Source: Bacteroidota bacterium (GTDB lineage: Bacteria > Bacteroidota > Ignavibacteria > Kryptoniales > JAKASW01). From it: a stretch of DNA of 51,085 bases. The stretch covers positions 5,483 through 56,567 of the forward strand of contig JAJYRM010000011.1 of assembly GCA_021794075.1 (NCBI GenBank), read 5' to 3'. The translations under genes and the position numbers were made by a program. The notes under the pieces were generated by a model. That model was not told where the DNA came from, did not search any database, and saw only the letters and a program-made list of their open reading frames with translations. Shown here one piece after another: positions 2 through 28,802 of the stretch; the first letter of the stretch is position 1; each line of letters begins with the position of its first letter.

Positions 2-1594
2 GGCATCCCGATGCTTCTCATGTCGGGCCATGACGCCGAAGGAAACAATATCCCTTGCGAGAGAGAAATCGACCGCCTTTCCGATTCGATCATTCAAATT
101 TTGGAAGGTGGAGGACAAATCTCTACCGAAGAGAGAAATAATGATGATGAAGCTCTGACGTCTGAACTAGAACAACTCTCTAACGAGATCGAAGACCGGG
201 ACAATATTGGCCTGGCAATAATCGATCCCCAAAACCTCAATGTACTCAGAGCGGATGATGCATTCTCCGCCATGATGGGCTTCCCCCGAAATGAACTCAA
301 GGCGATGAGGTCTATAATGAGACTCATTGCCGCCGACGATATTATCGGATTCGAGAGATTCTTGTTTGGTATGAACCGTTTGGACGCAAATGGAAAGAGC
401 ATGACCGTAAGAGTTATTGGTAAAAACGGCCTGCTTAAGCAACTCGTTTTTACTGCCAAAGAATATTACCGGAATGACAAGAGAAGGATTGCCATGATAG
501 CTCATGATTTACTTGACACCACAGGATTATCGTATGGCAATGAACCGCACTTCGATGCTCGACTGGATTCATCGTGTAATGTGGTGTTTGATTTGGATGA
601 GAGAGGAGAAGTGAGAAGTTGGAACGAGGGGGCGTTACGTATGACCGGCTTTCGGGATTCGGAAATACTGGGGGCGGATCTGACGTTTCTACTCAAAGAA
701 GATACAAATGCGCGAACGCTGACTGAGGCCTTCGTGAAGGGTACTGCAAACACGGAGAGAATCGAGCTGCCGGCCTGGATCAGCCGAAGGGATGGGGAGA
801 GATTCGAGGCTTTTCTTACCCTTAAGAGACTGTTCGACGCGGTCGGAGCTCCTTCAGGGTTCTCAGTTCGCCTGGAGAAGAAGACCGCAGATGAAATTCT
901 GGAAGGGAAGTTGCGTGAAAGGGAAGCGCAGCTGCGCTCTCTCGCATCCCATCTCCAGGCGGCACGCGAGGAGGAGAAAGCCAATATTGCAAGACAGCTT
1001 CACGACGAATTCAGTCAGACCCTTACGGCGCTGCGGATGGATCTTGCCATACTCGGAAGGATGGTCGCCAAGACAGTCTCTGAACCGTTTGGCCGCGCAT
1101 CGCTTCTCGAGAAAGTATCTTCAGTATCCGAAATTCTTGAAACGGCGATAAGGTCTGCCCGTGACATGATAACGGAACTCAGACCGGCTGTGTTGGATGA
1201 ACTTGGTCTCCTGACCGCCATTCAATGGCAAGTCCTTGACTTCGAGAACCGTACCGGTATCAATTGTCATATTACCAGACTCCAGCACGGCATATCCTTT
1301 GACCCCGTGATTTCAACAACCGCGTTTCGAATTCTTCAGGAGGCGCTTGACAATGTGAAAAGACACTCAGCCGCGACGGACGCTTTCATATCGTTGCAAA
1401 TAATAGATTCTAGTCTTGTCCTGGAGATAACCGATAATGGCATCGGAATCGGCCCGGAAAAAATCAAGTCGCCTGCTTCCATTGGAATTATAAGTATAAG
1501 AGAGCGCGTCCATTCACTTGGCGGAAATTTGGAAGTCCGCGGCGAGACTGGACGAGGAACAACTTTGGTAGTATCAATTCCACTGTCTAGGTAA
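2..1594 (+). CDS. PAS sensor histidine kinase, NarX/DegS type (5' end outside window)
   Basis: The reading frame is open to the left edge, so the true start lies outside the window; the first Met is at position 11. Counting from it, there is a PAS domain at about residues 60-165, a second PAS at about 185-290, a short coiled coil at 295-320, and a HisKA_3 dimerisation box whose phosphoacceptor is H331 in RQLHDEFSQ. A HATPase domain follows, with N-box EALDNVKRH, D-box TDNGIGIG and a final GRGTT. No membrane segment is visible, so the kinase is probably cytoplasmic. The first codons read GIPMLLMSGHDAE, which resembles the beta4 end of a response-regulator receiver, so the full protein may begin with a receiver. 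It ends 24 bp before a NarL-type regulator that should be its partner, but that regulator lacks the phosphoacceptor. The kinase assignment is firm; the signal is unknown. Confidence 0.93.
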   Translation, partial: GIPMLLMSGHDAEGNNIPCEREIDRLSDSIIQILEGGGQISTEERNNDDEALTSELEQLSNEIEDRDNIGLAIIDPQNLNVLRADDAFSAMMGFPRNELKAMRSIMRLIAADDIIGFERFLFGMNRLDANGKSMTVRVIGKNGLLKQLVFTAKEYYRNDKRRIAMIAHDLLDTTGLSYGNEPHFDARLDSSCNVVFDLDERGEVRSWNEGALRMTGFRDSEILGADLTFLLKEDTNARTLTEAFVKGTANTERIELPAWISRRDGERFEAFLTLKRLFDAVGAPSGFSVRLEKKTADEILEGKLREREAQLRSLASHLQAAREEEKANIARQLHDEFSQTLTALRMDLAILGRMVAKTVSEPFGRASLLEKVSSVSEILETAIRSARDMITELRPAVLDELGLLTAIQWQVLDFENRTGINCHITRLQHGISFDPVISTTAFRILQEALDNVKRHSAATDAFISLQIIDSSLVLEITDNGIGIGPEKIKSPASIGIISIRERVHSLGGNLEVRGETGRGTTLVVSIPLSR

Positions 1595-1618: not shown

Positions 1619-2257
1619 ATGATAAAGATTCTCCTCGCTGACACTCACCCCCTCGTGCGTAAGATGCTGAAAGAGACTCTCGAAAGGGAGTCTGACATGA
1701 AAGTCATTTCCGAGGCGGAGAGTACTCGTCAGGTTATGGATGGATTGAGGAAACAGTTGCCAGATGTCGTACTGACTAGTCTTTCTCTTCCAGGGAAAGG
1801 GTCACTTAAAATGATCAAAGAGCTCAAGAGGCTCTATCCTGGATTGCCGGTACTCGTTTTGACGATGCATCCGGAAGAGCTTTTCCGAAGCGAAACAATG
1901 AGGTCAGGCGCATCGCGCTATTTGACGAAAGATGTACCGCCTGAGAAGATCATCTTGACAGTGCGTGAATTGATCTCTCCCACAGGATTACTATCGGGCT
2001 CAGCTCCTCAGGATTCTGCTGCGTCGGGGAAGGGCGCAAGGGAGCTCGGATTGTCGCGCGAATTTTTTTCCCGGCGCGAATTTCAAATTATATGCGCTCT
2101 TGCTGCGGGTAAGGAAGGTCCGGAGATAGCGAAGGATCTGAATCTCACCCTTCGGACGGTCAGCGCTCATCTGAGCAGGATAATGAAAAAAATGGGAATC
2201 GAATCGATGCCGGAGCTTAGACGTTGCGCAGCTGAAAGCAAATTGACGGCTTCTTAG
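1619..2257 (+). CDS. NarL/FixJ-type regulator with a degenerate receiver (no phosphoacceptor Asp)
   Basis: This 212-residue protein has a receiver-like N-terminus (1-125) and a LuxR-type helix-turn-helix at about 148-208, with REFQIICALAAGKEGPEIA and the recognition helix TLRTVSAHLSRIMKKMG. The receiver has lost key residues. The phosphoacceptor position reads VVLTSLSLPG, giving S54 instead of Asp. The N-terminal acidic pair is D8-T9 instead of Asp-Asp. T82 and the conserved K104 remain. Phosphorylation in the usual way is therefore not expected, although the kinase gene is only 24 bp upstream and the two look cotranscribed. The domain may work as a dimerisation or protein-binding module, or may read the kinase without phosphotransfer. 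DNA binding is expected from the intact HTH; targets are unknown. Confidence 0.9.
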   Translation: MIKILLADTHPLVRKMLKETLERESDMKVISEAESTRQVMDGLRKQLPDVVLTSLSLPGKGSLKMIKELKRLYPGLPVLVLTMHPEELFRSETMRSGASRYLTKDVPPEKIILTVRELISPTGLLSGSAPQDSAASGKGARELGLSREFFSRREFQIICALAAGKEGPEIAKDLNLTLRTVSAHLSRIMKKMGIESMPELRRCAAESKLTAS

Positions 2258-2595: not shown

Positions 2596-3630
2596 CTATT
2601 CTTCTATCTCGAACCGCTTCAATTTATCGTACAGCGCTTTCCTACTCAATCCTAGTATAATCGCGGCTTTGGATTTGTTATTGTCCACGAACGACAACGT
2701 CCTTAGGATTATCGCCTTCTCTGCTGAGTCCAGCGAAGTGCCGAGCGGTATCGTTATCACGTCGGATGCCTGTTTGGTCTCCGCTAACCTCACTGGGAGG
2801 ATGTCTGGCGTGACTGCATCCGTCGGAGAAAGTATCACCGCCCGTTCAACGAGGTTCCTGAGCTCTCTTATATTTCCAGGCCATTCATACTGCATAAGGA
2901 GCCGCATCGCTTCGTCGGAAATCGTCTTCAGAGCCTTCTTATGTTTCTGACAAAAATAGGTTAGAAAATGTGAGATCAAGTCTGGTATGTCTTGTTTTCT
3001 TTCGCGCAACGGGGGAAGGTGAATTTCGATCACGCTGAAGCGGTAATACAAATCAAGACGCATTTCGCCTGCGGCTATGGCCTGCTCCACATTTTTATTT
3101 GTCGCGGCCAGCATGCGAACGTCGGCGTTCATCTCGTTCTTTCCGCCGAGCCTGCGGAAGGCCTTTGTCTCGATTACTCTAAGTAGCTTAGCCTGAGTGT
3201 CGGTCTCCATTTCGGCGAGTTCGTCCAGGAAGAGCGTTCCCTTGTCGGCCATTTCCAAGTAGCCCGCCTTCTTTGCGGTCGCTCCTGTGAAGGCGCCCCC
3301 TTCATGACCAAAAAGCTCATTCTCAAAAACATCACGCGGGACAGCCGCGCAGTTGATCGCGATGAAGGGGAGATCTGCCCGTGGGCTGCTCATGTGGATC
3401 AAGCGGGCTACCACGTCCTTTCCTGTCCCGCTTTCGCCTGTGATAAGTACTGGAGTAGAAGAGTCCGCGACAAGCTGAATCATGGAATAAATCTCGCGCA
3501 TGGCGGGGCTGTTCCCCACGAAGTCCACTCGCAGCTTCTTCGAACTAGCGTTACTTCTCGATGAAGCGCTTGCAGGAACCGTTTGTTGCGGCAGCTCTTT
3601 CTCTCTTCCGCCCAAGTCTGTGTATGCCAT
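2596..3630 (-). CDS. Sigma-54-dependent transcription activator lacking a receiver domain
   Basis: This bacterial enhancer-binding protein of 344 residues drives open-complex formation by sigma-54 RNA polymerase through ATP hydrolysis. A short, low-complexity N-terminus (1-34) leads straight into the AAA+ domain. That domain shows Walker A GESGTGKD (65-72), the sigma-54-contacting loop GAFTGA (112-117), Walker B GTLFLDEL (131-138) and a YRFSVIEIHLPPLRER sensor/arginine-finger region. A Fis-type helix-turn-helix closes the protein (about 305-344, KSKAAIILGLSRKALYDKL). The usual N-terminal receiver, GAF or PAS domain is absent, so it is either constitutive or controlled by a separate partner, as PspF is. 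No sigma-54 (-24/-12) promoter was recognised nearby, so its targets are probably elsewhere. The gene is monocistronic on the minus strand. Confidence 0.93.
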   Translation of the reverse strand: MAYTDLGGREKELPQQTVPASASSRSNASSKKLRVDFVGNSPAMREIYSMIQLVADSSTPVLITGESGTGKDVVARLIHMSSPRADLPFIAINCAAVPRDVFENELFGHEGGAFTGATAKKAGYLEMADKGTLFLDELAEMETDTQAKLLRVIETKAFRRLGGKNEMNADVRMLAATNKNVEQAIAAGEMRLDLYYRFSVIEIHLPPLRERKQDIPDLISHFLTYFCQKHKKALKTISDEAMRLLMQYEWPGNIRELRNLVERAVILSPTDAVTPDILPVRLAETKQASDVITIPLGTSLDSAEKAIILRTLSFVDNNKSKAAIILGLSRKALYDKLKRFEIEE

Positions 3631-3976: not shown

Positions 3977-4648
3977 TTAATGTTTCCCGCCTATGTCGAT
4001 GAGGCTCTTTTGTATGGCATATTTTACCAGCCCGACAATTTCATGTACGTTCAGCTTCTTCATGATATTCGTTCTATGGCTGTTTACGGTCGTCACGCTA
4101 AGGTGGAGCCTCTCGGCGATCTGTTTGCTGGTCAATCCTTCCGCTATCATCCTGAGGACTTCGGTTTCACGCGCAGTCAACTTTTCCTCATTGCTAATCT
4201 GGAAGGGGACGCGGTTCCGAGTGCTCCGGACCAGTCTGTCCAACAATGCTTTCGACACGTTCGAACTGAAGAAGGTCGACCCTCCCGCTACCGCGCGGAC
4301 ACCATCGAAAATCTCTTTCTTTTCGGCGTTTTTGAGCACATATCCATCTGCTCCGGCCAGTAAGAGTTCGTGGATATACTCTTCGTTCTCATGAATTGTG
4401 AGGATAAGGACCTTAGTATCGGGGAAGCGTTCCTTTATTATATTTGTGGCTTCAATCCCATTTACGTTGGGCATGGAAATATCAAGGACGGCTACGTCCG
4501 GGCGGTTTTCCTCAACTAGCTTCACTGCCTCAGCTCCATCGGATGCTTCTCCAACGATTGTGAATCCAGGATCGCTTTTGAAAAGCGATCTCAATCCATC
4601 TCGCACAATTGCATGATCGTCGGCAAACAGTATCTTAATTTTCTGCAT
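3977..4648 (-). CDS. NarL/FixJ-type response regulator
   Basis: This 223-residue two-component regulator has an intact receiver: acidic pair D10-D11, phosphoacceptor D56 in VAVLDISMP, the switch Thr in LILTIHEN and the conserved Lys in YVLKNAEKKE. A LuxR-type HTH lies at about 152-215, with LTARETEVLRMIAEGLTSKQIA and the recognition helix SVTTVNSHRTNIMKKLN. Its start overlaps the end of the upstream kinase by 14 bp, so translation is probably coupled, and the two form a cognate pair. Unlike the regulator at 1619-2257, nothing suggests loss of phosphorylation. Target genes are unknown. Confidence 0.94.
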   Translation of the reverse strand: MQKIKILFADDHAIVRDGLRSLFKSDPGFTIVGEASDGAEAVKLVEENRPDVAVLDISMPNVNGIEATNIIKERFPDTKVLILTIHENEEYIHELLLAGADGYVLKNAEKKEIFDGVRAVAGGSTFFSSNVSKALLDRLVRSTRNRVPFQISNEEKLTARETEVLRMIAEGLTSKQIAERLHLSVTTVNSHRTNIMKKLNVHEIVGLVKYAIQKSLIDIGGKH

Positions 4649-6440
4649 CTCTGCCCTTGGGGTTGAGTGGTACCGTCGCGTGTATCGAAGTGCCCTTCCC
4701 CATAGAAGACTCGATAGTGAAATCCCCTCCGAGAAGTTCCGTCCGTTCGCGCATATTTATGAGTCCGAAATGTTTACCTGTTATTTTCTGATCCAAGTAA
4801 GTTGTGAGCTCAAATCCGGTCCCGTTGTCCGTGAAAGAGAGTGATAGCCTTTCCATCGACTCTGCCAGTTTCAAGTGAGCCGCCTTCGCTTTTGCATGCT
4901 TTCCGCAGTTTGTGAGAGCTTCTTGCGCTATCCTGTACAGCGCAATTTCCATGTCCGGATCGAATCGCTTATGCGGCGCGACATCTGTTTCGAAGTGAAC
5001 CTGAACGCTATGGAGTTTTTCGCAATCCGAACAGAGGAGCCTCAGCGCGGTGACTAGCCCGAAATGATCGAGGGCCGATGGACGCAGATTATAAGATATG
5101 CTCCTTACCTCTGAAATCAAATTGTTTATTTCGGACTTGACCGACTTTAACCTGCGTGCGCTTACCTTCTTATTGGTGTCCACTGAGTCTTCAAGAACGC
5201 TCATTTGGATGTTCAGTGCAGTCAAGCGCTGGCAGATCTCGTCGTGGAGCTCACGGGAAATTCTCCGGCGCTCTTCTTCCTGAGCTCTTTGCGCGAGTTG
5301 AGCGTACCTCCTCAAATCTTCAGTTCGTTGGAGCTGATGCTCCCTTATTCTTTCTTCGCTGTTCTTTCTCTCAGTTGCGTCTCTTACCGCAACGACGGCA
5401 TGAGTAACCGTCGAAAGATCGTTCTTGTACGGGTAGCAATCGACTTCAAGGTACCTCCGCCCGTCACTTTTTAGCTCGAACCATCCTTCATCCTTGACCT
5501 CATGACCGGATAGGCACTTTGAAATGCACAGCCCGAACATCTTTTTGAGCGCTTCGCTTTCTACCACCTCGTCGAACTTCTTTCCAATGATATCCTCTTT
5601 GTTCTTTGAAAGAGCTGAGCGGCATGCCTCGTTAACGGCTTCCAGTTTCATCTCGGAGTTTACCAACATCATCGATTCCTTCGAAGTGTTCACGATAAAC
5701 TCGTATTTCCTCCTCAGTTCTTCAAGATTTCTCCTGTCCGTGATATCGCGCGAGTTGAGGATGACGAGTTCGGTGACGAAGGGGCTGTCAGGCACCTTCT
5801 TGCCGATCGACTCGATGATAAGCCAATCGCCGTTCTTATGACGGAACCTGTATTCAACACGGGCCGTGGAGTAGAGCGCGTCCGTGTTAGTCGTGAATAG
5901 CTCCAGGACGACGTCTACGTCGTCTGGATGGACAAATTCAAGTATGTTTCTACCGGCCAGGTCTGAGTGGGAATATCCAAGCACACGTTCGCCAGAAGGG
6001 CTCACATACATTAGCGTGCCCTCCCGGTCGAGGATAGTGACGATGTCCAGGGCGTTTTCAATCAGCGATCTGAAATATTTCTCGCTCTGGAGCAGAGCTT
6101 CTTCTGCATCCTGCCTCTCGTTTATCTGAACCTTCAAAGAAGAGGCAAGCTCCATGAACCCTCTTGAAGTCATTTCGAACGGCGACACGAATTCAGAGAA
6201 GAACTGATCGGCGTCGCTTATCGCTTTGCCGTGAAATTCCTTCTGAAGCCGACTTAAGAGGTCGAGCAGGACGTCGGCATGTAGTTGGGTAAGGTCAAGA
6301 ATGTTCTCCGCCTGGTCGAGCGCCTTTCTTCCCAGCTCGTATGCTCTGTACAAGTCCTGCTCTCTTCCGGATGTAATATAGCTTTGCATCGCGGAGATAT
6401 ATTCCAGTCTGAAGTCGTCGGTGAGGGCGCTGATAGCCAT
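4635..6440 (-). CDS. Histidine kinase with RsbU-like N-terminal domain, two PAS domains, HisKA_3
   Basis: This soluble 601-residue kinase has no membrane segment. Residues about 8-95 resemble the helical N-terminal domain of the phosphatase RsbU, with AYELGRKAL, a central QLHAD and the C-terminal FVSPFEMTSRGF; in the family this domain is the docking site for RsbT. PAS 1 spans 112-240 and PAS 2 spans 242-360, followed by a coiled coil, then HisKA_3 with H399 in SRELHDEICQR, and a HATPase with EALTNCGKHA, TDNGTGF and GKGTS. It overlaps the NarL regulator downstream by 14 bp. An RsbT-like gene lies 204 bp upstream on the same strand. The arrangement suggests that RsbT binds and adjusts this kinase, in place of the usual PP2C phosphatase. 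The kinase call is firm; the N-terminal domain match is by eye. Confidence 0.92.
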   Translation of the reverse strand: MAISALTDDFRLEYISAMQSYITSGREQDLYRAYELGRKALDQAENILDLTQLHADVLLDLLSRLQKEFHGKAISDADQFFSEFVSPFEMTSRGFMELASSLKVQINERQDAEEALLQSEKYFRSLIENALDIVTILDREGTLMYVSPSGERVLGYSHSDLAGRNILEFVHPDDVDVVLELFTTNTDALYSTARVEYRFRHKNGDWLIIESIGKKVPDSPFVTELVILNSRDITDRRNLEELRRKYEFIVNTSKESMMLVNSEMKLEAVNEACRSALSKNKEDIIGKKFDEVVESEALKKMFGLCISKCLSGHEVKDEGWFELKSDGRRYLEVDCYPYKNDLSTVTHAVVAVRDATERKNSEERIREHQLQRTEDLRRYAQLAQRAQEEERRRISRELHDEICQRLTALNIQMSVLEDSVDTNKKVSARRLKSVKSEINNLISEVRSISYNLRPSALDHFGLVTALRLLCSDCEKLHSVQVHFETDVAPHKRFDPDMEIALYRIAQEALTNCGKHAKAKAAHLKLAESMERLSLSFTDNGTGFELTTYLDQKITGKHFGLINMRERTELLGGDFTIESSMGKGTSIHATVPLNPKGRDAEN

Positions 6441-6644
6441 CCGGGTCTCTCGGTTTTTCGGTCTGATGTCTGTTACGCTTCGATATGGTTTTCCACCGCG
6501 TATCCGCTGGGGAAATAACCTGTCGTCATAACTCTAATGTTGGATATGTGAAAGATTTGATATCTGAAGGATTGTCCTGACGGAACGATGTCCCGTAGAC
6601 GGCCTTTTCTTAGATTGTTTACTGGAGCTTGTTAGGGTTCTGCT

Positions 6645-7088
6645 TCAAATTACATGGCTCTTCAGGAGCCACTTTCTCATTATAACCGTTGTGCCTCTCC
6701 CGTTCGCCGATTCCAGCTTAAACTCGTCCATGAGCCTCCTGGTACCGGGTAATCCCAGCCCGCGCCTGTTACCAGTCGAGTAACCGTCACTCATCGCCAA
6801 AGTAATATCAGAAATGCCAGGTCCGTTGTCATGTGCCTTTATTTCAATACCATGCCTTTCGTCCGACTCGACGACTTGGATGAACATTTCGCCTGACTCA
6901 GCGTAAATAACGATGTTTCTCGCGATTTCAGAAATGCCAGTGGCTATCCTCGTCAAATCAGTGACAGGGAATCCTATCTCTTTTCCAATGCGGCGCCCAT
7001 GCTCTCTTGCCATTATTATATCAGAATACGAACCTATAACTAACCGCACGCAGTTTTCCATCTCTAGCCTCATGCTTTCGTTATTCAT
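6645..7088 (-). CDS. rsbT: RsbT-like switch serine/threonine kinase
   Basis: This 147-residue single-domain GHKL ATPase matches RsbT of stressosome and partner-switch systems along its length. The N-box is GISEIARNIVIYA, followed by a D-box KAHDNGPGISD, then AMSDGYSTGNRRGLGLPGTRRLMDEF and the closing GRGTTVIMRKW. RsbT phosphorylates RsbS/RsbR-type STAS proteins and, once released, activates RsbU by binding its N-terminal domain. No rsbR, rsbS, rsbV, rsbW or PP2C gene is in the window. The next gene on the same strand encodes a histidine kinase whose N-terminus resembles RsbU-N, a natural alternative client. The two are separated by 204 bp, so cotranscription is plausible but unproven. The upstream region carries a 7-bp inverted repeat that could be an operator. 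Confidence 0.85.
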   Translation of the reverse strand: MNNESMRLEMENCVRLVIGSYSDIIMAREHGRRIGKEIGFPVTDLTRIATGISEIARNIVIYAESGEMFIQVVESDERHGIEIKAHDNGPGISDITLAMSDGYSTGNRRGLGLPGTRRLMDEFKLESANGRGTTVIMRKWLLKSHVI

Positions 7089-13013: not shown

Positions 13014-13246
13014 CCGACTTCTAAAGCATTCATTGGCTTTTGATAAATATAGGCGCGGATGAAAGCTCTTGGAGAAATGCGGACCGATATTTAGATTACA
13101 ACAGTTCGCCCACTGAGCAAGCGGCATTTTGTTATTCAATTCTAAATCATGAGTCGTAAATGCAGGATACCTATGCGGTGCGGACTGCTTAGTGATCCCG
13201 CAAAGACACCTAATTGACCGCGGCCGGCAAGCCGCAGGCGGAAGTC

Positions 13247-16036
13247 GTGAAGAGAAGAGCCAGCAGAACCACCGCATTGTTACGAAACTGGTTGATACTT
13301 TCCTCAATTCTCACCGTTTGCCTTACAACCGGAGGGTTTCTTTACTACGGAATCGAGAAGAGAAGAATCCTTATCGAAAAGTATAGAGACATAGAATCTA
13401 TAATCAATCTCGAGACAAAGGAGATAGAGCGGTGGCGAATTGAGCGGCTGGCGGACGCGCGTGAGCTTGCCAATAGCCCGCTCATTGGCGCTTCAGTGCG
13501 ACAGTGGGTTCGCAATCCTAATGACGAAAGGTTGAAGACGCTTCTGGAGAGGCAACTTCGGCTTGAGCGAAGACTCACTCTCTATTCAGGCGCATTCGTG
13601 GTCGATACCAATGGTCAAACCGTTATAGGAAGGGGCGTAGGACTTCCTCGCATCAACAATTCTGAAATGAGTGCGTTCAATGAAGTCCTTTCAAGTGGAA
13701 CTCCCGCCATCGGTGATTTCTTTCGCACGTCTGGCGGCAATGTATGCATAGATGCTTTTGACGCTGTCAGGAACAGACATGGTCGCTCCGTTGCGGTCAT
13801 CGTATTGAGGACAGCCGCCAGCAATTTCCTGTTCCCATTAATAGATACCTGGCCGATAGCGACGAAGTCTGCGAGATCCATACTTGCGGAGAGACTCGGA
13901 AATAATGTCAGGATAATTTGCGGACCAGGTTCAGATGGGCGAGCTACGGTGATGAAGTCATTTTCTCTCATGGATACGAACCTGGTTGAAGTGAAAGCGG
14001 CGTTGGGATACGCTGGAAAATTCGAAGGAGAGGGATTGAAAGGTCAGCAGATTCTCGCCTATTTGCGACCGATCCCGGAGACCCCATGGTTCTTTGTCGG
14101 CCAGATGGACTTGAGTGAAATACTCGCCGAAGCGAATTTTCGCGGTGGAATGGTCGGTCTAATTGTTTTATTGACCGTTGGGCTTGCCGTTTTTGGGACC
14201 GCATACGCGTATCGGCGCGAGGAAGCGGCGATTTACCGGGAGTTACTTAGTGTTAAGGGCGAGCACCGTAAGGACACCGAGAAGATGGAGCGTCTCGGGA
14301 CAATTGTAAAATTCTCTGACGATGCAATTCTCGGCGGGACACTCGATGGAATAATTACGAGCTGGAATGTTGGGGCGGAACGAATTTACGGATACAGCGA
14401 GTATGAGGCGGTAGGTAAATCTATTGGTTTTCTATCGGCGCCAGGGCGCGAAGGGGAAGCCTCACGAATTCTTACCGACATTCGTAATGGAAAGCCAATC
14501 CGCCGTTATGAAACGATCAGGAAGCGGAAGGATGGCACGATAATAGACGTCTCCCTAACGGTTTCTCCGATTATTAATGCTGAGAATACCGCTGAAGGTT
14601 TTTCCTCCGTCTCTAGGGACATCACCGATCTCAAGCGAGCGGAAAACGATTTGGCACGCTTTTTTGACCTCGTGCCTGACCTGGTGGCCATAGTGGGTTC
14701 TGGCGGATACTTCAAGAAACTCAACCCGGCCTGGCAAAGAATCTTGGGGTATACCTTAGATGAATTATATTCGGAGCCGATCACGAGCTTAATAAACCCG
14801 GCGGATGTTGAGAGGACTTTGGAGGAAATTCAAAGGCAGCTAGATGGATTTCCGACGTTGAATTTTATAAACAGATACAGGTGCAAGGACGGAGCATACA
14901 GGGTCCTTGAATGGCAGGCGGCTCCTTCTCCTGACGGGGAGAACCGTTATTTAGCGGGCAGAGATATTACGGAAAGACAGGAGGCTGAGAAGGTGTTAAG
15001 GCTCCAATCAAGCGCTCTGCAGTCGGCATCAAGCGCCATTGTCATAACCAACCGAGCGGGGGAAATAAATTATGTGAACTCCGCCTTTACAAGACTGACC
15101 GGCTACACCGGCGAGGAGGTGCTTGGGCGGAACCTAAGGATCCTCAAATCCGGAAAGCAGCCAGAGTCGTTCTATGCCAATATGTGGTCTACCATTACCG
15201 CGGGCGCGGTGTGGCAGGGGCAGCTTGTGAACAGGAGGAAAGACGGAACACATTACATGGAGGAACAAACAATAACTCCGGTCCGGGCAGAGGCAGGTGG
15301 GGGGATAACTCATTTTATCGCAATTAAGACTGACGTAACAGAACGCATTGAGGCAGAAAGGAAGCTCAGAGAATCCGTATCGCAGCTGCATGAACTCAGC
15401 GAAAGGATTGAAAAAGTCAGAGAAGATGAACGGAAGGCTTTATCGCATGAAGTCCATGACGAGCTTGGACAGATTCTGACCGCGGTGAGAATGAGCATTG
15501 TTAAACTTAACGATTACAGAAACAAGCCGGGTACTAAGTTTGAGAACGAAATGATGAAGGCGATCAGCAGCGTGGATGACGCTATTAAATCTGTTAGAGA
15601 CATTGCCGGCAGGCTCCGTCCCGGTGTCCTCGATCTCTTGGGCCTCATTCCTGCTATCGAATGGCAGGTGGATCAGTTCAGGCAGCAATACGGCATCTCT
15701 TGCTCTCTCCGAGTTCCAAAGGAGGAGAAAAAAGTAGACGATGAAAGAGCCACTGTCCTTTTCAGGATCCTCCAGGAAGGACTGACGAATATCGCCCGAC
15801 ACGCACGCGCAGGGAATGTGGCCGTCACGTTCTCGGCTGGCGAACACGATTATAAGATGGTAATTTCTGACGACGGCATCGGCATCACCGAAGAACAGGC
15901 TAATAGTCCTCACTCTTTCGGTCTAATGGGGATTAAAGAGCGTTTGAGGCCACTCGGAGGGAATTTCATGATCCGCCGGCGCCCCGAAGGAGGTGGCACG
16001 GAAATAAGAGTCGATTTGCCAAAAAGTATCCATTGA
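13247..16036 (+). CDS. Membrane-bound PAS histidine kinase (HisKA_3) with the shared periplasmic sensor
   Basis: I prefer the GTG at 13247 over an in-frame TTG at 13214, because it places the first membrane segment and the EKRR boundary at the same distance from the N-terminus as in the two paralogous kinases. On the numbering from the TTG, TM1 is about 24-46, a roughly 260-residue extracytoplasmic domain follows, TM2 is about 311-333, and three PAS domains lie at about 355-475, 480-590 and 595-715. The HisKA_3 box has H748 in SHEVHDELGQ, and the HATPase has EGLTNIARHA and SDDGIGIT. The sensor carries the motif IE.WR.ERL.DA.ELA..PL, repeated in the kinases at 29519 and 34266. A NarL regulator follows 9 bp downstream and is its likely partner. 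The ligand is unknown. Confidence 0.93.
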   Translation: MKRRASRTTALLRNWLILSSILTVCLTTGGFLYYGIEKRRILIEKYRDIESIINLETKEIERWRIERLADARELANSPLIGASVRQWVRNPNDERLKTLLERQLRLERRLTLYSGAFVVDTNGQTVIGRGVGLPRINNSEMSAFNEVLSSGTPAIGDFFRTSGGNVCIDAFDAVRNRHGRSVAVIVLRTAASNFLFPLIDTWPIATKSARSILAERLGNNVRIICGPGSDGRATVMKSFSLMDTNLVEVKAALGYAGKFEGEGLKGQQILAYLRPIPETPWFFVGQMDLSEILAEANFRGGMVGLIVLLTVGLAVFGTAYAYRREEAAIYRELLSVKGEHRKDTEKMERLGTIVKFSDDAILGGTLDGIITSWNVGAERIYGYSEYEAVGKSIGFLSAPGREGEASRILTDIRNGKPIRRYETIRKRKDGTIIDVSLTVSPIINAENTAEGFSSVSRDITDLKRAENDLARFFDLVPDLVAIVGSGGYFKKLNPAWQRILGYTLDELYSEPITSLINPADVERTLEEIQRQLDGFPTLNFINRYRCKDGAYRVLEWQAAPSPDGENRYLAGRDITERQEAEKVLRLQSSALQSASSAIVITNRAGEINYVNSAFTRLTGYTGEEVLGRNLRILKSGKQPESFYANMWSTITAGAVWQGQLVNRRKDGTHYMEEQTITPVRAEAGGGITHFIAIKTDVTERIEAERKLRESVSQLHELSERIEKVREDERKALSHEVHDELGQILTAVRMSIVKLNDYRNKPGTKFENEMMKAISSVDDAIKSVRDIAGRLRPGVLDLLGLIPAIEWQVDQFRQQYGISCSLRVPKEEKKVDDERATVLFRILQEGLTNIARHARAGNVAVTFSAGEHDYKMVISDDGIGITEEQANSPHSFGLMGIKERLRPLGGNFMIRRRPEGGGTEIRVDLPKSIH

Positions 16037-17080: not shown

Positions 17081-18916
17081 GTGTCGATCTGTATTCCGCG
17101 GATGCGACTGGCCATCAACGGGAGACTCGAATTCCGGGCGTTGACAATGGCAATCCCTTTCCAAGAAAGTGACAGTCAGCCTTCCGGCTTGGCGGGAACG
17201 CCAGAAATGGCTGCCGTCATTTCAGAAATCTCCCGTCATTTGGAAATACTCAAAGCGATGATGCACACAAGCGAGAGCGGTTTTCTTTCAGTCGGCTCCC
17301 ATCTTCAAAGGATTCACTTAAGCACGCAGGAAATCTCAACAAAACTGTCTGAGCTGATGAAGAAATACTCGGAAGAGACCGGCACGCAATCTTTGAACCA
17401 GCTGCGGGTGTTATCTGAAAGAGCAGCAAACCAGCTCAGCTCATTCAACGCATTCTCAATGAAAGCGGTCTCAAACCTGAAAGAATTGGAGGAGCCTCTG
17501 GCTTCGTTACCGGATTCGCTACGCGACTTTGACAGAGTTGTCTTGCGCCTGAGGAAGATGGGGATTATAGCGCACATTGAAGCGGCGCGTATCGGGGATG
17601 AAGGGCTTGACTTCGTACGACTCGCTGAGGCGGTAACGGCTTTGGGAGAGCAGATCACTTCCAAGGCTAAAGATGTCCGCTCTTACGTCAACGGAGTTAA
17701 CGACGTCATCGGATTAAATAAGCGAAAAATGGAGAGCATGATAGGAAGGCACGGTGAGGTGACCAGCCACGTTACCAGTCACATGGCATCAAATCTTTCC
17801 GTGCTGACGGAGAAAAGAGAATCAATTCAGCGGGTCGCCGTCGCGATTGCGGAGAAATCAGATGAGGCCGTTCGCAACGTTAACAACATAGTTCAATCAG
17901 TCCAGTACCATGACATCACGCGTCAGCAAGTAGACCACGTCATTCAGTCGCTGGAAGCAATAGGAAGCGAAGACACCGTACTTGAGATTGTTCCGATCTG
18001 CGAGATACAAGTGGCGCAACTGAAACGCGTTGGGATGGAATTCGAACGGGCAATTTACTCGATAGAGGCCGCGTTGAAGGAGCTTTCCGCGGCTGTCAGC
18101 GAAATGTTTACAGAGTCTGTCAACATAACGAGCTCGACAAAGGTCTCGGGACGGTCTTTTATCGATGAAGTGGAGAGCGGGCTTGAGATTGTGAGCGCGA
18201 CAATGACTGAAGATCAATTCGCCGTTGATGAGCTCGCGTCATCTCTAAGGCAGATCAGCGAGAACATACGTAAAATGAGGTCCTTCATGGATGAGATGGC
18301 CGAAGTAGGATCCGAGATTGAACTACTCGCTCTCAATTCTCGAGTGAAAGCCGCAAGGACAGGTGGCGGTGCGACGCTCGGCGTAATAGCCGAGTCGATC
18401 GAGAACCTCTCCGTTGCCACGCTTCGGCTCGTGGATGAGGTCCTCCTAAGGATGTCCGATATGGTTACCGCGTCGAAGGAGCTGGTGGACGACCATGCGA
18501 TAGAATCGGTAACCAATCACGCGGAAACTGAGATAAGAAGCATAATTGACCAGCTGAGGAGGATCGTCGTTGCGTTCCATGAAAACAACGCGATTAGCAA
18601 TCGGGTTTTTGTCGAGACTCAAGAAATGTGCTCCGCAATAGTCGGTCAGTTACAGATGCTCACGTCCGAGATCGTCAGAAATCAGGAGATTGCCTTGACG
18701 CTTGTTGAGACCGCGAGCGCGCTTGAACAAGTCGCGAGCGAATTGCGCCGTAGCGTGCCGGACTCGTCGCGGCTAATCATTGATGAAAGACTTGAAGAAA
18801 TGCGCAAAAATTACACAATGGAAACTGAAAGGTCCACTTATAGTTCCGTCATGAATGGTAGTGCGGATCAAAGGGAGTCGCTTGTCGAATCAACAGGGTC
18901 CATCGAATTATTCTAA
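17081..18916 (+). CDS. Soluble MCP-like protein with two degenerate signalling tips
   Basis: The GTG start at 17081 has GGAGG 7 bp upstream; an ATG at 17147 is the alternative. The 611-residue product is almost entirely helical and coiled coil, with no membrane segment or recognisable ligand domain. Two segments imitate the hairpin tip of methyl-accepting chemotaxis proteins: residues about 158-185 (GIIAHIEAARIGDEGLDF) and about 408-435 (ELLALNSRVKAARTGGGATLG). Each is followed by the expected descending-helix pattern. A normal receptor subunit has one tip. It starts the cluster, 44 bp before cheY. It could be an unusual cytoplasmic receptor, an array scaffold, or an adaptor that competes for CheA/CheW. 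I know of no named family that fits; the resemblance to MCP tips is clear, the function is inferred. Confidence 0.8.
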   Translation: MSICIPRMRLAINGRLEFRALTMAIPFQESDSQPSGLAGTPEMAAVISEISRHLEILKAMMHTSESGFLSVGSHLQRIHLSTQEISTKLSELMKKYSEETGTQSLNQLRVLSERAANQLSSFNAFSMKAVSNLKELEEPLASLPDSLRDFDRVVLRLRKMGIIAHIEAARIGDEGLDFVRLAEAVTALGEQITSKAKDVRSYVNGVNDVIGLNKRKMESMIGRHGEVTSHVTSHMASNLSVLTEKRESIQRVAVAIAEKSDEAVRNVNNIVQSVQYHDITRQQVDHVIQSLEAIGSEDTVLEIVPICEIQVAQLKRVGMEFERAIYSIEAALKELSAAVSEMFTESVNITSSTKVSGRSFIDEVESGLEIVSATMTEDQFAVDELASSLRQISENIRKMRSFMDEMAEVGSEIELLALNSRVKAARTGGGATLGVIAESIENLSVATLRLVDEVLLRMSDMVTASKELVDDHAIESVTNHAETEIRSIIDQLRRIVVAFHENNAISNRVFVETQEMCSAIVGQLQMLTSEIVRNQEIALTLVETASALEQVASELRRSVPDSSRLIIDERLEEMRKNYTMETERSTYSSVMNGSADQRESLVESTGSIELF

Positions 18917-18960
18917 GAAATGGAACAGTCTATGTTACCTATTTTACGGGAGCAAAAGCG

Positions 18961-19329
18961 ATGTCGAAAGTGATCATGACCGTGGATGATTCCACGAGTA
19001 TCCGGCAAATGGTGGCTTTCACACTTGGCGGGGCGGGATACCAGGTCATAGAGGCTGTCGACGGGAAGGACGCTCTCGACAAGCTGGGCGACTCGAGTAC
19101 AATTGACATGCTCGTTACCGATCTCAACATGCCGAACTTGGATGGAATAGAGCTCGTGAAGGGGGTCAGGGCCCAGCAGCGTCACAAGTTCATACCGATT
19201 CTGCTTCTGACCACCGAATCGCAGGAGACTAAAAAGCAGCAGGCGAAGGCTGCCGGCGCGTCAGGCTGGATCGTAAAACCATTTAACGCGAACCAGCTTA
19301 TCGATGTAGTCAGAAAGTTGCTGAAATGA
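18961..19329 (+). CDS. cheY: CheY-type single-domain response regulator
   Basis: This 122-residue stand-alone receiver has acidic residues D9-D10, phosphoacceptor D54 in MLVTDLNMPNLDG, T84 in LLLTTES and K106 in IVKPFNA. These are the full set needed for phosphorylation by CheA. Its stop overlaps the cheA start (ATGA, 19326-19329), so the two are translationally coupled. What it controls is open, because no flagellar switch or pilus motor gene is in the window. Confidence 0.94.
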   Translation: MSKVIMTVDDSTSIRQMVAFTLGGAGYQVIEAVDGKDALDKLGDSSTIDMLVTDLNMPNLDGIELVKGVRAQQRHKFIPILLLTTESQETKKQQAKAAGASGWIVKPFNANQLIDVVRKLLK

Positions 19330-21443
19330 TGGACCGAAACCAACAAGCATTCATCGAAGAAGCAAGGGATCTCCTCTCTGGCCTGGAGGATTCGCTACTG
19401 GAAATCGAGCACGATCCCCTGAACAGTGAGCTGGTTGGAAAGATCTTCCGGGCGATGCATACTATCAAAGGGGCGAGCTCCATGTTTGGGTTCGATGCCA
19501 TCGCCTCATTCACTCACGATATCGAAACTGCATTTGATGCCGTCAGGGAGGGGGTTGTTGCCGTCACACCGCAGCTGGTGTCCATGACGCTAGCTAGCCG
19601 AGACCATATATCGGCCCTTCTCTCTTCTGCGGAATCCGAGGTCGAGCCGGACCTCGAACTGACGTCAGCGGGGGATGAGCTCCTGAAGCGTTTTCGTGAG
19701 TTGGTCCCTCAGACTCCACCTGGAAAAACAGATACAGGCAGTCCACACGACGTGAAGCAGATGATGCCAGAAACGAATCAACGGGCCGCACTTTACAGAA
19801 TTCACTTCAAGCCGCCTGAAAACATCTTGCTTCGCGGTTTGGACCCGATGAACCTTATTCAGGAATTAGCAGCCATGGGTGAGGAACGGCATGTCGTCCA
19901 TTCTGAAGAGACCTCGCCTGATGAATCGCGGGCTGACTTATGCCATTCAGTCTACGATGTTTTGCTTTCTACATCCCACCCTCTGGAGAGCCTCCAGGAC
20001 GTGTTCATATTCGTTGAGGAAGACAGCGAACTCCGCATCGAGAAACTGGCGGACGCTTCTGCTTGCGATAAAGATGTCTGGCAGCGGCTCATCGAAGCAA
20101 TGCAGGCCTCAAAGGGTGTTCCCACGTCGGTGCTGATATCGATGATTAAAGAAGCACACCAAATTCATCAGCGCGTAAGGAATGAGAGTTCGACCTATGG
20201 CGGTGCCGGTGGACAGCATCCAGATCTGAAGAGCGCACAGAGTATCAAAGTGCCATCGGAACGGCTCGATAAACTCGTGAATCTGGTCGGGGAGCTGGTT
20301 ACGGTGCAGGCCCGCTTGACACAAGCTGCTGTGAACCTATCCGACCCGTCTTTGACTCAAATCGCAGAGGAGGTAGAGGCGCTCATTTCTGAGCTTCGCG
20401 ACAACGCCATGAGCATCCGGATGGTCCCGATAGGAACTACCTTCGGACGCTTTAAACGGCTCGTTCGCGATTTGTCGGCAGAACTTGGGAAAGAAATCCA
20501 GCTTGTGACTGAAGGTGAAGATACAGAGTTGGATAAGACGGTCATCGAGCGGCTTGGCGATCCTCTCGTCCACATGATAAGGAATTCCATCGATCACGGC
20601 ATCGAGTTACCGGCGCAAAGGGAACAGGTAGGGAAGGCGCGCGCCGGAACCATACGACTCTCCGCCTCTCATTCTGGGACGAGCGTCAAGATATCGATCT
20701 CCGACGATGGCGCGGGCTTCGATACGGAGGCAATTCGTCTAAAGGCGGTTATGCAGGGCATGATCGACCCCGATGCGACTCCGACAGAACAGGAGCTCCT
20801 TTCGATTGTGTTCGCACCAGGGTTCTCGACTGCGAAAGAAGTGACAAGCGTTTCGGGCCGCGGAGTCGGCATGGACGTGGTTCACCGGAGCATTGAGGAA
20901 CTCGGAGGGCAAATCGAAGTTTCTAACTCTCCGGGTAAAGGAGCGACGATAACACTTAAGCTTCCTCTAACGCTCGCCATCATCGAGGGACTGCTTGTCA
21001 AGGTTGGGAGTGAGTTATTTGTGTTACCCCTCGCGTCAATCAAGGAGTGCGTTGAATTGCCGGCGCTCGAACAACGCCGTGGGAAAGGAGGCCAGCTGAT
21101 CAATGTCCGTGGCGAAATAATACCCTACGTGAGACTCCGCGATTTCTTCGGGATTACTGGTGAAACTTCGACTTACGAGTATGTTGTCATAACTGAAATC
21201 GACGGTAGACGATGCGGGTTCGCAGTCGATGCTGTCCTTGGCGAACATCAAATTGTCATAAAGTCCCTTGGTCTTATGTATAAAGACGTCGAGGGAATTT
21301 CAGGCGCAACTGTCCTGGGGGATGGAACCGTTGCCCTTATAATCGATATCCCGCCCCTTATTGCCGTCGCTGTACGTGAACGGGAACGGCTCGTCCGGTT
21401 TGAAACGATCGCTGGCGACGACAGCAGGAACAAGAGAAACTAA
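19326..21443 (+). CDS. cheA: Chemotaxis histidine kinase CheA
   Basis: This 705-residue protein has the CheA domain order. The Hpt/P1 domain spans 1-105, with H45 in RAMHTIKGASSMFGF. A P2-position domain lies at about 157-255, starting YRIHFKPPENILLRGLDP and ending with DVFIFVEEDSEL, a type seen in many non-enteric CheA proteins. P3 dimerisation lies at about 303-360 (SERLDKLVNLVGELVTVQ). The P4 ATPase is at about 365-545, with HMIRNSIDHGIE and SDDGAGFD. A CheW-like P5 starts near 546. It phosphorylates CheY, CheB and possibly the receivers of nearby hybrid kinases. It is coupled to cheY and followed 25 bp later by the receptor gene. Confidence 0.96.
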   Translation: MMDRNQQAFIEEARDLLSGLEDSLLEIEHDPLNSELVGKIFRAMHTIKGASSMFGFDAIASFTHDIETAFDAVREGVVAVTPQLVSMTLASRDHISALLSSAESEVEPDLELTSAGDELLKRFRELVPQTPPGKTDTGSPHDVKQMMPETNQRAALYRIHFKPPENILLRGLDPMNLIQELAAMGEERHVVHSEETSPDESRADLCHSVYDVLLSTSHPLESLQDVFIFVEEDSELRIEKLADASACDKDVWQRLIEAMQASKGVPTSVLISMIKEAHQIHQRVRNESSTYGGAGGQHPDLKSAQSIKVPSERLDKLVNLVGELVTVQARLTQAAVNLSDPSLTQIAEEVEALISELRDNAMSIRMVPIGTTFGRFKRLVRDLSAELGKEIQLVTEGEDTELDKTVIERLGDPLVHMIRNSIDHGIELPAQREQVGKARAGTIRLSASHSGTSVKISISDDGAGFDTEAIRLKAVMQGMIDPDATPTEQELLSIVFAPGFSTAKEVTSVSGRGVGMDVVHRSIEELGGQIEVSNSPGKGATITLKLPLTLAIIEGLLVKVGSELFVLPLASIKECVELPALEQRRGKGGQLINVRGEIIPYVRLRDFFGITGETSTYEYVVITEIDGRRCGFAVDAVLGEHQIVIKSLGLMYKDVEGISGATVLGDGTVALIIDIPPLIAVAVRERERLVRFETIAGDDSRNKRN

Positions 21444-21468
21444 AACATAAAACCAAGGAGAAATTCCT

Positions 21469-24400
21469 ATGAAATCTGATCCAGCAACAAGGAAGTCATC
21501 CGGCAAGAAGGCCGATTCCGGGCAACAACTAATGATGGCGGAAATTATTCGGCTTACAGAAGCTGCGAAGGCAGGGCACCTTTCTGAGCGAGCGGATCTC
21601 AGTAAGTTCGACGGTGAGGCGAGGGCGCTCCTCCTCGGAGTGAACGAAATGCTTGATTCAGTAATAAAGCCTCTTGACGTCGCGGCCGACTATGTGGACA
21701 AAATCAGCAACGGCGTCATTCCTCAGAAGATTAACGATTCATACAACGGTGATTTCAATACTATCAAGAATAACCTGAACAAATGCATAGATGCCGTCGG
21801 AGGACTCGTTTCAGAAATGAACTTCATGTCTCGCCAACACGACCTTGGCGATATCGACATCGTAATTCCGAGCGAGAAGTTTCAGGGAGTTTACAGGGAG
21901 ATGGCCGATGGAGTGAACAAAATGGTTGGCGGTCATATCGCCGTCAAGAAAAAGGCGATGGCCTGCATCGCGGAATTCGGGAAAGGTAATTTCGATGCAC
22001 CACTCGAGAAATTTCCGGGTAAGAAAGCTTTTATTAACGATACGATAGAGGCGCTTAGAGCAAACCTAAAGAAAGTCAACTCGGAGATCGGCCAGCTTGT
22101 CAAAGCCGCCGCTAATGGTGAGCTCGACAAACGCGCGAACGCCGAGATGTTCCAGGGGGACTGGAGCAAACTCGTTGCCGGATTTAACGACACAATAATT
22201 AACATCGTAAATCCACTTATGGTAACCGCCGATTATGTCGATAAGATCGCGAAAGGGATAATTCCTCCAGAAATCACGACGGAATATAAGGGCCAGTACA
22301 ATGTCATTAAGGTAAACCTGAACGCTGTCGTTAAGATGATGGGCGAATTGCTCGTCGAAACAGATATGCTCATAAAGGCTACTATTGAAGGCAAACTGTC
22401 AACTCGAGGTGATGCCGCAAAGTTTGCCGGCGATTGGGGCAAACTGGTAGGGGGTGTTAACAGTTTGGTCGACGCCTTTGTCCGTCCAATAAATGTTACC
22501 GCCGAGTATGTGGATAGAATATCGAAGGGAGACATTCCACCGAAGATAGTCGATACCTACCATGGCGATTTCAACGAAATAAAGAACAACCTAAACGCTT
22601 GCATCGACGTAATGAACGGGCTTCTTTCTGAGACTGACCGGTTGATCAACGCGACGGTCGAAGGGAAGCTTTCGACGCGCGGCGATGCCGGGAAGTTCGC
22701 GGGAGGCTGGGGGAAGCTGGTAGGCGGAGTGAACAGCCTCGTGGATGCGTTCGTGGGCCCGATCAACGTGACGGCGGAGTATGTTGATCGGATATCGAAG
22801 GGAGACATACCGCCGAAGATAGTTGACACGTATCATGGGGATTTCAACGAAATAAAGAACAACCTGAACGCATGTATCGACGTGATGAACGGTCTGCTGA
22901 GCGAGACGGACAGGATCGCGAAGGCGGCTGCTGACGGAGAGCTCGACAAGAGAGCGGAAGCTGGGAAGTTCATTGGTGGGTGGAACAGGCTGGTGACCGG
23001 AGTGAACGAGACGATCACGAATATAGTGGATCCGCTCATGGTGACGGCGGATTATGTGGACAAGGTTGCCAAAGGAGTTATACCGCAGGAGATCACGACC
23101 GCGTACAAGGGGCAGTACAACATCATAAAGAACAACCTTAATGCGGTGGTTAAGATGATGAGTGAACTCCTCAAGGAAACTGACGTGATAATTAAGGCTG
23201 CGGCGGATGGCGAACTCGATAAGCGAGCGGACGCGTCCAAGTTTGTCGGCGGCTGGAATCAGTTAGTGAAGGGAGTCAACGATACGATCACGAATATAGT
23301 GGATCCCCTTATGGTTACGGCGGACTACGTCGACAAGGTGGCTAAAGGAGTCATACCGCCAGAGATAACCACGGTTTACAAAGGACAATACAACATAATC
23401 AAAACAAACCTTAACGCTCTCGTCAAGATGATGGGTGAACTGCTCAGAGAGACCGACGAACTGGTGAAGGCCGCGTTGGATGGCAAGCTCCAGACTAGAG
23501 CAAACGCGTCGAATTTCGTCGGCGGTTGGAATCAACTCGTGAAAGGAGTGAATGAGACCCTTGACGCGGTGGTAGAGCCGATGCAGGAAGTGATGAACGT
23601 AATGTCCAAGATGATGGAAGGAAACTTCGGCGACAGAATTTCCGGAAACTATCGGGGAGATTTTGACCATCTCAAGAAGGCCGTCAATGAGGTCGGCGAA
23701 TCACTCCAGAGTACCGTATCCGATGTGGGAGCTATCCTCACGGAGATGGCTAACGGCGACCTGACCGCTCGGATTACCTCGGAGTACAAGGGAGACTTCA
23801 TCAATATAAAGAACAGCATCAATCAACTCGGGCAGGCACTCGACAAGGTGATGGTTGACATAAGCGTCTCGGCGGAAAACGTGGCTTCCGGGAGTCAGCA
23901 GCTCAGTTCGACTTCAGAGCAGATGTCGCAGGGAGCGACTGAGCAGGCAAGTGCGGCAGAGGAGGCTTCTTCTTCCACCGAAGAGATGGTCAGCAATATC
24001 AAGCAGAACGCGGACAACGCGCACCAGACCGAGAGCATAGCATCACGATCCGCACAGGATGCCCGAGTCGGCGGAGAATCGGTACAGCAAACCGTCGAAG
24101 CGATGAAGAAGATCGCGAACAAGATATCCATCATTGAGGAAATTGCCCGTCAAACCAATCTCCTTGCCTTGAATGCCGCAATCGAAGCCGCCAGGGCGGG
24201 TGATCATGGGAAGGGATTCGCGGTTGTCGCCTCAGAGGTACGCAAGCTTGCTGAACGGAGCCAGGCCGCTGCCGGTGAGATTAACCAACTTGCCGGTTCC
24301 AGCGTTGAAATAGCCGAAAAGGCGGGAGAAATGCTCGGTAAGCTTGTGCCCGATATTCAGAAGACTGCTGAACTCGTTCAGGAGATATCCAGCGCAAGCG

Positions 24401-24777
24401 CTGAACAGAGCACCGGTGCGTCCCAGATAAACAAGGCGATCCAGCAGCTCGACCAGGTCATTCAGCAGAATGCCTCAGCGTCTGAGGAAATGTCCGCTAC
24501 CGCGGAAGAACTCGCCGCGCAGTCCGAAGCGATGAAGGAATCCATAGCATTCTTCAAGCTGAGCAGCAACGGTCACCGCGCGAAAGACGCGGCGCCCGCC
24601 AAGCATCACCCCGCCGCTAAAGTGGCACACATTGGCAAGCAGAGCAACGGGGCCAAGAAGCAGACGAACGGCAAACAGGCTTCATCCTCCATGGCTGCTA
24701 CGCCGAACGGTCACATCATTAGTCTGGATGACGATTCCCATAATGGCAGCGACGACGCTGAGTTCGAGAAATACTGA
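21469..24777 (+). CDS. Cytoplasmic poly-HAMP methyl-accepting chemotaxis protein
   Basis: AAGGAG precedes the ATG at 21469. The 1102-residue receptor has no membrane segment. Residues about 17-800 are an array of HAMP-like units alternating between a [16 protein letters not shown] type and a [17 protein letters not shown] type. Units starting at 22210, 22483, 22756, 23029, 23302 and 23575 are spaced exactly 273 bp (91 residues) apart. The MCP signalling domain follows (about 800-1030), with a canonical tip near 889-925 ([19 protein letters not shown], then [18 protein letters not shown]). A polar, flexible tail of about 65 residues ends in EFEKY, which fits the aromatic-x-x-aromatic CheR-tethering pentapeptide. 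It is probably the main receptor of the array, sensing an intracellular cue or a partner bound to the HAMP stack. Confidence 0.95.
22387..22914 (+). repeat. Tandem near-identical 91-residue HAMP units inside the receptor
   Basis: Two adjacent units, from 22387 and from 22660, encode about 85 residues with only about three amino-acid differences (from [10 protein letters not shown] through GLLSETDR). Their DNA differs at many third codon positions. They are the most alike pair of an array whose six best units keep a 273-bp register without indels. Confidence 0.85.
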
Positions 24778-24787
24778 GGAGATGGAA

Positions 24788-25285
24788 ATGAACGAGACTA
24801 TAACTGAAACGACTCAGTACCTTACCTTCAAGCTCGAGGATGAGGTCTACGCGACGGACATAGCTCAGGTCCGAGAAGTGCTCGAATACTCGCGCGTCAC
24901 GAAAGTCCCAAGGACTCCCGATTACATGCGTGGAGTGATAAACCTCCGCGGCCGCGTAGTCCCGGTACTTGATCTGAAACTCCGATTCGGAATGAACCGG
25001 ACGGAGCAGACAGTCAACACTTGCGTGATAATCGTCGAGGTGAATATGGAGGGCGAAACGATGGTGATCGGCGCCCTCGCGGACAGCGTGCAGGAGGTGA
25101 TCGAGATGGATCCGTCTGTCATCGAACCCGCCCCCAAGATAGGAACCAAACTTAACACCGACTTCATCCGAGGTATGGGTAAGAGAGATGAACAGTTCAT
25201 CATCATACTGGACATCGATAAAGTGTTCTCCGCCGATAACCTTGGGGCCGTCAAAGCGACTATGGCCGAGCCGGTATTAGAATGA
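24788..25285 (+). CDS. cheW: Chemotaxis coupling protein CheW
   Basis: I chose the ATG at 24788 because GAGGAG (24776-24781) is 6 bp upstream of it; the in-frame ATG at 24782 has no room for a ribosome site. The 165-residue protein is a single CheW domain: QYLTFKLEDEVYATDIAQVREV, then MRGVINLRGRVVPVLDL and a later ALADSVQEVIEM. The ribosome site overlaps the receptor stop codon, so the two are tightly coupled. It links the receptor to CheA. Confidence 0.95.
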   Translation: MNETITETTQYLTFKLEDEVYATDIAQVREVLEYSRVTKVPRTPDYMRGVINLRGRVVPVLDLKLRFGMNRTEQTVNTCVIIVEVNMEGETMVIGALADSVQEVIEMDPSVIEPAPKIGTKLNTDFIRGMGKRDEQFIIILDIDKVFSADNLGAVKATMAEPVLE

Positions 25286-25294
25286 ACTAAGGCC

Positions 25295-25498: not shown

Positions 25499-25500
25499 TC

Positions 25501-26723: not shown

Positions 26724-26793
26724 CTGTAGAAGTGAGAATGCTATGGCGAGCGTCTAAGTTTAGCCTCTAAAATTTTGAATTGAAAATATTCAC

Positions 26794-28802
<2,009 letters not shown>

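Follow-up and report, generated by a model that had tools for sequence, protein, structure and literature searches.

The 51,085-nt stretch analyzed here, referred to as the window, spans positions 5,483 to 56,567 of the forward strand of contig JAJYRM010000011.1, from a Bacteroidota bacterium of the class Ignavibacteria (GenBank assembly GCA_021794075.1). It contains a four-gene cassette on the minus strand in the order rsbT, RsbU_N histidine kinase, NarL-type regulator, and sigma-54 activator. We favor the view, with a probability of about 0.72, that this is a stressosome-derived cassette in which RsbT would bind the RsbU_N domain of the kinase and control its autokinase activity, with the NarL-type regulator and the sigma-54 activator as outputs. 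Domain identity, operon structure, co-occurrence, ancestry, and largely conserved contact residues carry this view. The initial annotation had correctly placed an RsbT homologue upstream of a HisKA_3 kinase that overlaps a NarL regulator, and both the coordinates and the RsbT identity are confirmed. It missed the sigma-54 activator downstream, and the cassette is larger than it described. The cassette features are:

6645-7088, minus strand: rsbT homologue, a GHKL switch kinase of 147 amino acids and the first gene of the cassette (Pfam HATPase_c_2, 43.2 bits)
6441-6644, minus strand: 204 nt separating rsbT from the kinase gene, the site of rsbX in the full operon (tblastn, operon order)
4635-6440, minus strand: histidine kinase of 601 amino acids, RsbU_N-PAS-PAS-HisKA_3-HATPase_c (Pfam; 54% full-length identity to the kinase on contig C148 of the same genome)
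6177-6404, minus strand: RsbU_N docking domain, kinase residues 13-88 (PF08673, 34.7 bits; PDB profile match; AlphaFold model)
6069-6242, minus strand: single predicted helix, kinase residues 67-124, the proposed signal linker (AlphaFold, predicted local distance difference test score, pLDDT, >90)
5070-5273, minus strand: HisKA_3 phospho-acceptor domain, kinase residues 390-457, with an ELHDE motif (PF07730, 63.1 bits)
4662-4949, minus strand: HATPase_c catalytic domain, kinase residues 498-593 (PF02518, 46.4 bits)
3977-4648, minus strand: NarL/FixJ-type response regulator, overlapping the kinase gene by 14 nt (Response_reg 102 bits, GerE 78 bits)
2596-3630, minus strand: sigma-54 enhancer-binding activator with GAFTGA and no receiver domain (Sigma54_activat 220.8 bits, HTH_8)

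The small GHKL protein is identical to Bacillus subtilis RsbT at 62 of 133 positions (47%). The ATP-site residues N49, D78, and GxG and the RsbU-contact residues R19, R23, and D92 are kept both here and in the RsbT of a relative, genome G001. The equivalent of N24 is an arginine in the window RsbT, and the ATP-lid leucine L100, invariant in the other RsbT proteins of the family, is an arginine in both the window and G001. Residue numbers are those of B. subtilis RsbT, with numbering consistent with PMC12143880. By sequence, the small protein is a genuine RsbT that retains the residues of the ATP site and of RsbU contact. We also considered that it might be an anti-sigma factor of the RsbW or SpoIIAB type that lies near the kinase gene incidentally, as its matches among PDB sequences are SpoIIAB and its best NCBIfam model is SpoIIAB at 61.6 bits. 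The cut-off of that model is 135 bits, and the RsbW model scores 19.4 against 145, so both identities were rejected in favor of RsbT. Given also the resemblance to B. subtilis RsbT with its signature residues, orthology to the RsbT of an rsbRSTX operon, the adjoining RsbU_N kinase gene, and the fact that no sigma factor or anti-sigma antagonist gene was seen adjoining rsbT, an anti-sigma factor is highly improbable.

The kinase N-terminus had been described as RsbU-like, and a check against the family profile bears this out. PF08673 matches kinase residues 13-88 at E=2.1e-8 with a score of 34.7 bits, above the curated cut-off of 25.5 bits, and the same domain scores 38.6 bits in a genome-wide scan. 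When a profile was built from the N-termini of 17 RsbU_N kinases, B. subtilis RsbU (2j70) was the top PDB sequence at E=3.4e-6; a single-sequence search of the PDB with the kinase N-terminus alone reached RsbU only at E=0.4. The AlphaFold model of residues 1-125 has four helices with a pLDDT of 93.7. Its first Foldseek match in the PDB is the RsbU N-domain (1w53) with a probability of 0.99, but with an E value of 0.14 and a root mean square deviation of 6.2 Å, which makes the fold match weak taken alone. In this model, helix 67-124 connects the last RsbU_N helix with the first PAS domain without a break. Following RsbU_N, the PP2C/SpoIIE domain of the RsbU phosphatase is replaced by HisKA_3 and HATPase_c domains (Pfam), and these scores, along with the adjoining NarL-type regulator, place the kinase in the HisKA_3 (NarX/DesK-type) group. 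The sigma-54 activator is the conserved last gene of the cassette and is found in most rsbT/RsbU_N-kinase loci of the class Ignavibacteria, and RpoN is encoded in all five genomes checked. Near-consensus sigma-54 promoters match within the window no more often than expected by chance, with none close to the cassette.

The absence of nearby rsbR, rsbS, and PP2C genes noted in the initial annotation holds locally, but the same genome carries a full operon. Searches for RsbT, STAS, and RsbU_N converge on contig C148, where rsbR, rsbS, rsbT, rsbX, an RsbU_N kinase, a NarL regulator, and a sigma-54 activator are found consecutively, with the RsbU_N domain over the cut-off at 39.9 bits, as it also is in kinases linked to stressosome genes elsewhere in the class. 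The window and C148 proteins are 57% (RsbT), 54% (kinase), 69% (regulator), and 72% (activator) identical, and the window cassette is by this comparison a paralogue of the C148 operon lacking R, S, and X. No significant remnants of rsbR, rsbS, or rsbX were detected by tblastn around the window rsbT, including the 204-nt gap, or around the G001 rsbT. In a tree built from the joined RsbT, kinase, regulator, and activator sequences, the window cassette groups with that of G001 in a clade (support 100/100) that is sister to the rsbX-less rsbRST-kinase loci of G004 and G011 (88/91). Both clades fall inside a genus clade together with the rsbRSTX loci of C148 and G012 (100/99). The simplest history would be descent from a stressosome operon through duplication, loss of rsbX, and then loss of rsbR and rsbS. 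The window and G001 RsbT proteins are only 62% identical, and their branches are long (0.32 for the window and 0.93 for G001, on a shared stem of 0.72).

The neighborhood was checked for conservation across 294 Ignavibacteria genomes, counting RsbU_N at the Pfam cut-off. RsbU_N is present in 17 genomes, every one of which also encodes RsbT at E<=3e-36, with rsbT beside the RsbU_N kinase at every locus examined among them. RsbS is found in 16 of the 17, the exception being G001. A stressosome-type RsbT at E<=1e-20 occurs in only five of the 277 genomes without RsbU_N over the cut-off, and five genomes outside the 17 have RsbS and a more distant RsbT (E ~1e-23 to 1e-30) with no RsbU_N match. G129, G203, and G289 encode a second RsbU_N protein away from rsbT, and each also has an rsbT locus. 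Other arrangements were seen within the class. An rsbR-rsbS-rsbT locus in G004 (L038, contig C410) has an RsbT match covering residues 1-112 only and no rsbX or kinase match in the next 3.8 kb, and is possibly a broken stressosome copy or an assembly error. Loci L039, L040, and L042 (G059, G152, and G247) have rsbR-rsbS-rsbT followed by two further genes for longer proteins that contain RsbT-like GHKL domains. One of these, scanned individually, carries SpoIIE, pointing to another stressosome output architecture in Ignavibacteria.

Beyond the class, we scanned named genomes and found 73 RsbU_N loci; the scan was seeded with kinase sequences, which biases the proportions toward kinases. The loci span Ignavibacteria, Nitrospirae, Rokubacteria, Acidobacteria, Gammaproteobacteria, Myxococcales, Chloroflexi, Armatimonadetes, Actinobacteria, and archaeal Methanoperedens. 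Of the 73 loci, 66 have RsbT nearby, 63 of these also have RsbS, and two of the seven loci without a nearby RsbT are at a contig edge. HATPase_c was detected in 64 of 70 scanned RsbU_N proteins (38 HisKA_3 and 26 HisKA matches); the other outputs include SpoIIE (4) and GGDEF (1). This suggests that histidine kinases are a very common RsbT output across phyla and in Methanoperedens. Methanoperedens and related contigs (L079, L080, L081, L085, L091-L093, L098, L103, L108, and L111) have full rsbRSTX with RsbU_N proteins, and the L079 protein, the only one of this archaeal set scanned singly, is a HisKA kinase of the hybrid type that includes a receiver domain. The RsbU_N kinases of L090 (Terriglobia) and L083/L084 (Methanoperedens) have no rsbT in the flank examined. 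The L090 and L083 genomes, which were tested, encode RsbS elsewhere, and these kinases are possibly second targets of a distant RsbT.

Bacillus RsbT binds the N-domain and linker of RsbU and orders the linker so that the phosphatase dimerizes, with E24, Y28, I74, and I78 of RsbU and R19, R23, N24, and D92 of RsbT implicated (PMC12143880). The equivalent of E24 is invariant in 52 of 52 RsbU_N kinases and is E27 in the window kinase. The equivalent of Y28 is Y31, and a tyrosine is also found in G001. Several points weigh against direct docking. The Y28 position is glutamate or glutamine in most kinases of the family, and I74 and I78 are replaced by S82 and S86 in the window kinase, at positions that mostly hold small residues across RsbU_N kinases. 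The R91/Q94 linker positions are ambiguous, as alignments disagree. Shared operon inheritance could also keep rsbT and the kinase together without direct contact. Finally, the RsbT of Vibrio vulnificus showed no interaction with the downstream protein D1 (Heinz et al., PMC9237108), although in that study the proteins encoded downstream had no detected RsbU_N.

Still, docking is what we infer, because RsbU_N scores over the cut-off, the two genes co-occur, contact residues are largely conserved, the ancestry points to a stressosome operon, and there is a precedent in Moorella (below). The sequence evidence gives good support to communication between RsbT and the kinase, and to this extent the earlier interpretation is supported. 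Two of the outcomes that the initial annotation named as refuting it, a missing RsbU_N match and an unconserved neighborhood, did not occur. RsbT would dock on the four-helix RsbU_N domain of a kinase dimer as it does on RsbU in Bacillus, and the residue comparison suggests that the docking is the same but altered in detail. Docking would then set autokinase activity, upward or downward, through the continuous helix into the PAS domains. Phosphate would pass from the kinase to the NarL regulator, which would act on presumed target genes, and a second output is probably provided by the sigma-54 activator.

The initial annotation had gone further and proposed a partner-switch signal into a two-component system. 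The RsbT-kinase coupling in that proposal is supported; a partner-switch input to this copy is less certain, as rsbR, rsbS, and rsbX appear to have been lost locally. RsbR and RsbS are encoded at the C148 locus, are absent from the window locus, and were not detected in the G001 genome. G001 is 98% complete and carries the rsbT-kinase-regulator-activator cassette; of its five STAS proteins, four correspond to STAS proteins of the window genome that have a single domain, one is a paralogue, and none is RsbR or RsbS. Free RsbT would be supplied in one of two ways. The C148 RsbR/RsbS core may capture and release the window RsbT in trans, so that one stressosome would drive two RsbT-kinase outputs, perhaps with cross-talk among the two RsbT and RsbU_N proteins. 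In favor of this, genes for RsbR, RsbS, and RsbX are present on C148, the two RsbT proteins are 57% identical, and the window RsbT keeps its catalytic residues. However, G001 retains an equal cassette with no RsbR or RsbS detected, and the RsbT proteins of this clade sit on the longer branches and carry the arginine at the ATP-lid position. We regard control in trans as a serious candidate at somewhat less than even odds.

Alternatively, RsbT may be unsequestered, a dedicated and possibly nucleotide-responsive standing subunit of the kinase. The level or ATP state of RsbT, together with the PAS domains, would then determine activity. The intact ATP-site residues of RsbT and the accounted-for STAS proteins of G001 are consistent with this. 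So are an acidobacterial (L140) and a deltaproteobacterial (L104) genome, where rsbT adjoins an RsbU_N kinase gene and RsbS is missing both locally and from the rest of the genome, although both genomes are of unstated completeness; the L104 RsbU_N, at 17.9 bits, is below the Pfam cut-off. Against this, the window genome does retain an RsbR/RsbS core, incomplete assembly may explain why G001 has no second locus, and the role of antagonist could fall to a STAS protein with a single domain. A stressosome-free module is therefore a tentative proposal, with the balance tilting against it. The broader idea that RsbT was freed from the stressosome to become a permanent, possibly nucleotide-sensing allosteric kinase subunit, both in this genus and, as separate events, in two or more other lineages, is unlikely, if worth keeping in mind. 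It is more improbable still that the cassette is a decaying remnant in which rsbT no longer controls the kinase and the PAS domains alone drive it. The loss of rsbR, rsbS, and rsbX and the long RsbT branches would fit decay, but both RsbT frames are open, their catalytic and contact residues are conserved despite 62% identity, and RsbU_N is over the cut-off in both the window and G001. Our preferred reading remains a stressosome-derived cassette in which RsbT would control the kinase.

A second kinase gene faces the cassette and has its own regulator:

11-1594, plus strand: second PAS-HisKA_3 kinase, without RsbU_N (Pfam; counterparts at the C148, G012, and G001 loci by blast)
1619-2257, plus strand: response regulator, partner of the second kinase (Pfam; counterpart at the G001 locus by blast)

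On C148, a second PAS-HisKA_3 kinase adjoins an RsbT homologue of 138 amino acids (L019:8387-8803; 32% identical) that lacks the N-box Asn, DxGPG, and GxG, has no Pfam match, and is apparently non-catalytic. It has a counterpart at L021:3397-3858, with 81% conservation between the two genomes. The rest of the window is rich in signaling genes, including an apparent chemotaxis cluster (~17081-28802) and three more large multi-PAS kinases with similar N-terminal sensor regions (13214-16036, 29519-33940, and 34266-37931), two of which look hybrid with a receiver-like C-terminal domain.

RsbT-to-histidine-kinase wiring is common, has already been proposed in print, and is not new. Heinz et al. (2022) noted that proteins encoded downstream of rsbRSTX carry RsbU_N, and they proposed outputs of the two-component type (PMC9237108). 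A 2025 eLife study put forward RsbU_N as a docking module exchangeable between phosphatases, cyclases, and histidine kinases and described RsbU_N kinases in operons with stressosome genes; its evidence for kinases is a structural model and the citation of Heinz et al. (PMC12143880). What is less ordinary is that the window copy and its G001 sister are stressosome-derived cassettes stripped of the sensor core. Searches of the open-access literature yielded no description of the stripped cassette or of its sigma-54 activator, and nothing relevant on an orphan RsbT or on a stressosome in Ignavibacteria, although such absence is weak evidence. Because one genome combines a complete stressosome-kinase operon with its stripped paralogue, and the relative G001 has the stripped one only, the need of RsbT for a stressosome, the insulation of two RsbT-RsbU_N pairs, and the route from RsbT binding to the histidine kinase core become testable.

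Compared with the B. subtilis sigma-B switch, the cassette shares an orthologous RsbT with its catalytic and contact residues and a homologous RsbU_N with the invariant E24 equivalent. Unlike that switch, the effector is a HisKA_3 kinase with PAS domains rather than a PP2C phosphatase, and the window has neither the RsbV/RsbW/sigma-B cascade nor a local RsbR/RsbS. Gram-negative rsbRSTX operons, as described in PMC9237108, likewise have RsbT upstream of an RsbU_N protein, and C148 shares their rsbRSTX-kinase layout; the window copy differs in lacking R, S, and X and in ending with a sigma-54 activator. The gammaproteobacterial histidine kinase NreB (MBI3545564.1), modeled in PMC12143880, also carries an RsbU N-terminal domain and a helical linker, but it comes from another phylum, and the window kinase has PAS domains between dock and kinase core. 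The experimental precedent is Moorella thermoacetica, where RsbT controls an RsbU_N-GGDEF protein (Quin et al. 2012, as cited in PMC12143880). There, as proposed here, RsbT acts on a non-phosphatase output through RsbU_N, with the difference that the Moorella output is cyclic-di-GMP synthesis and a stressosome is present.

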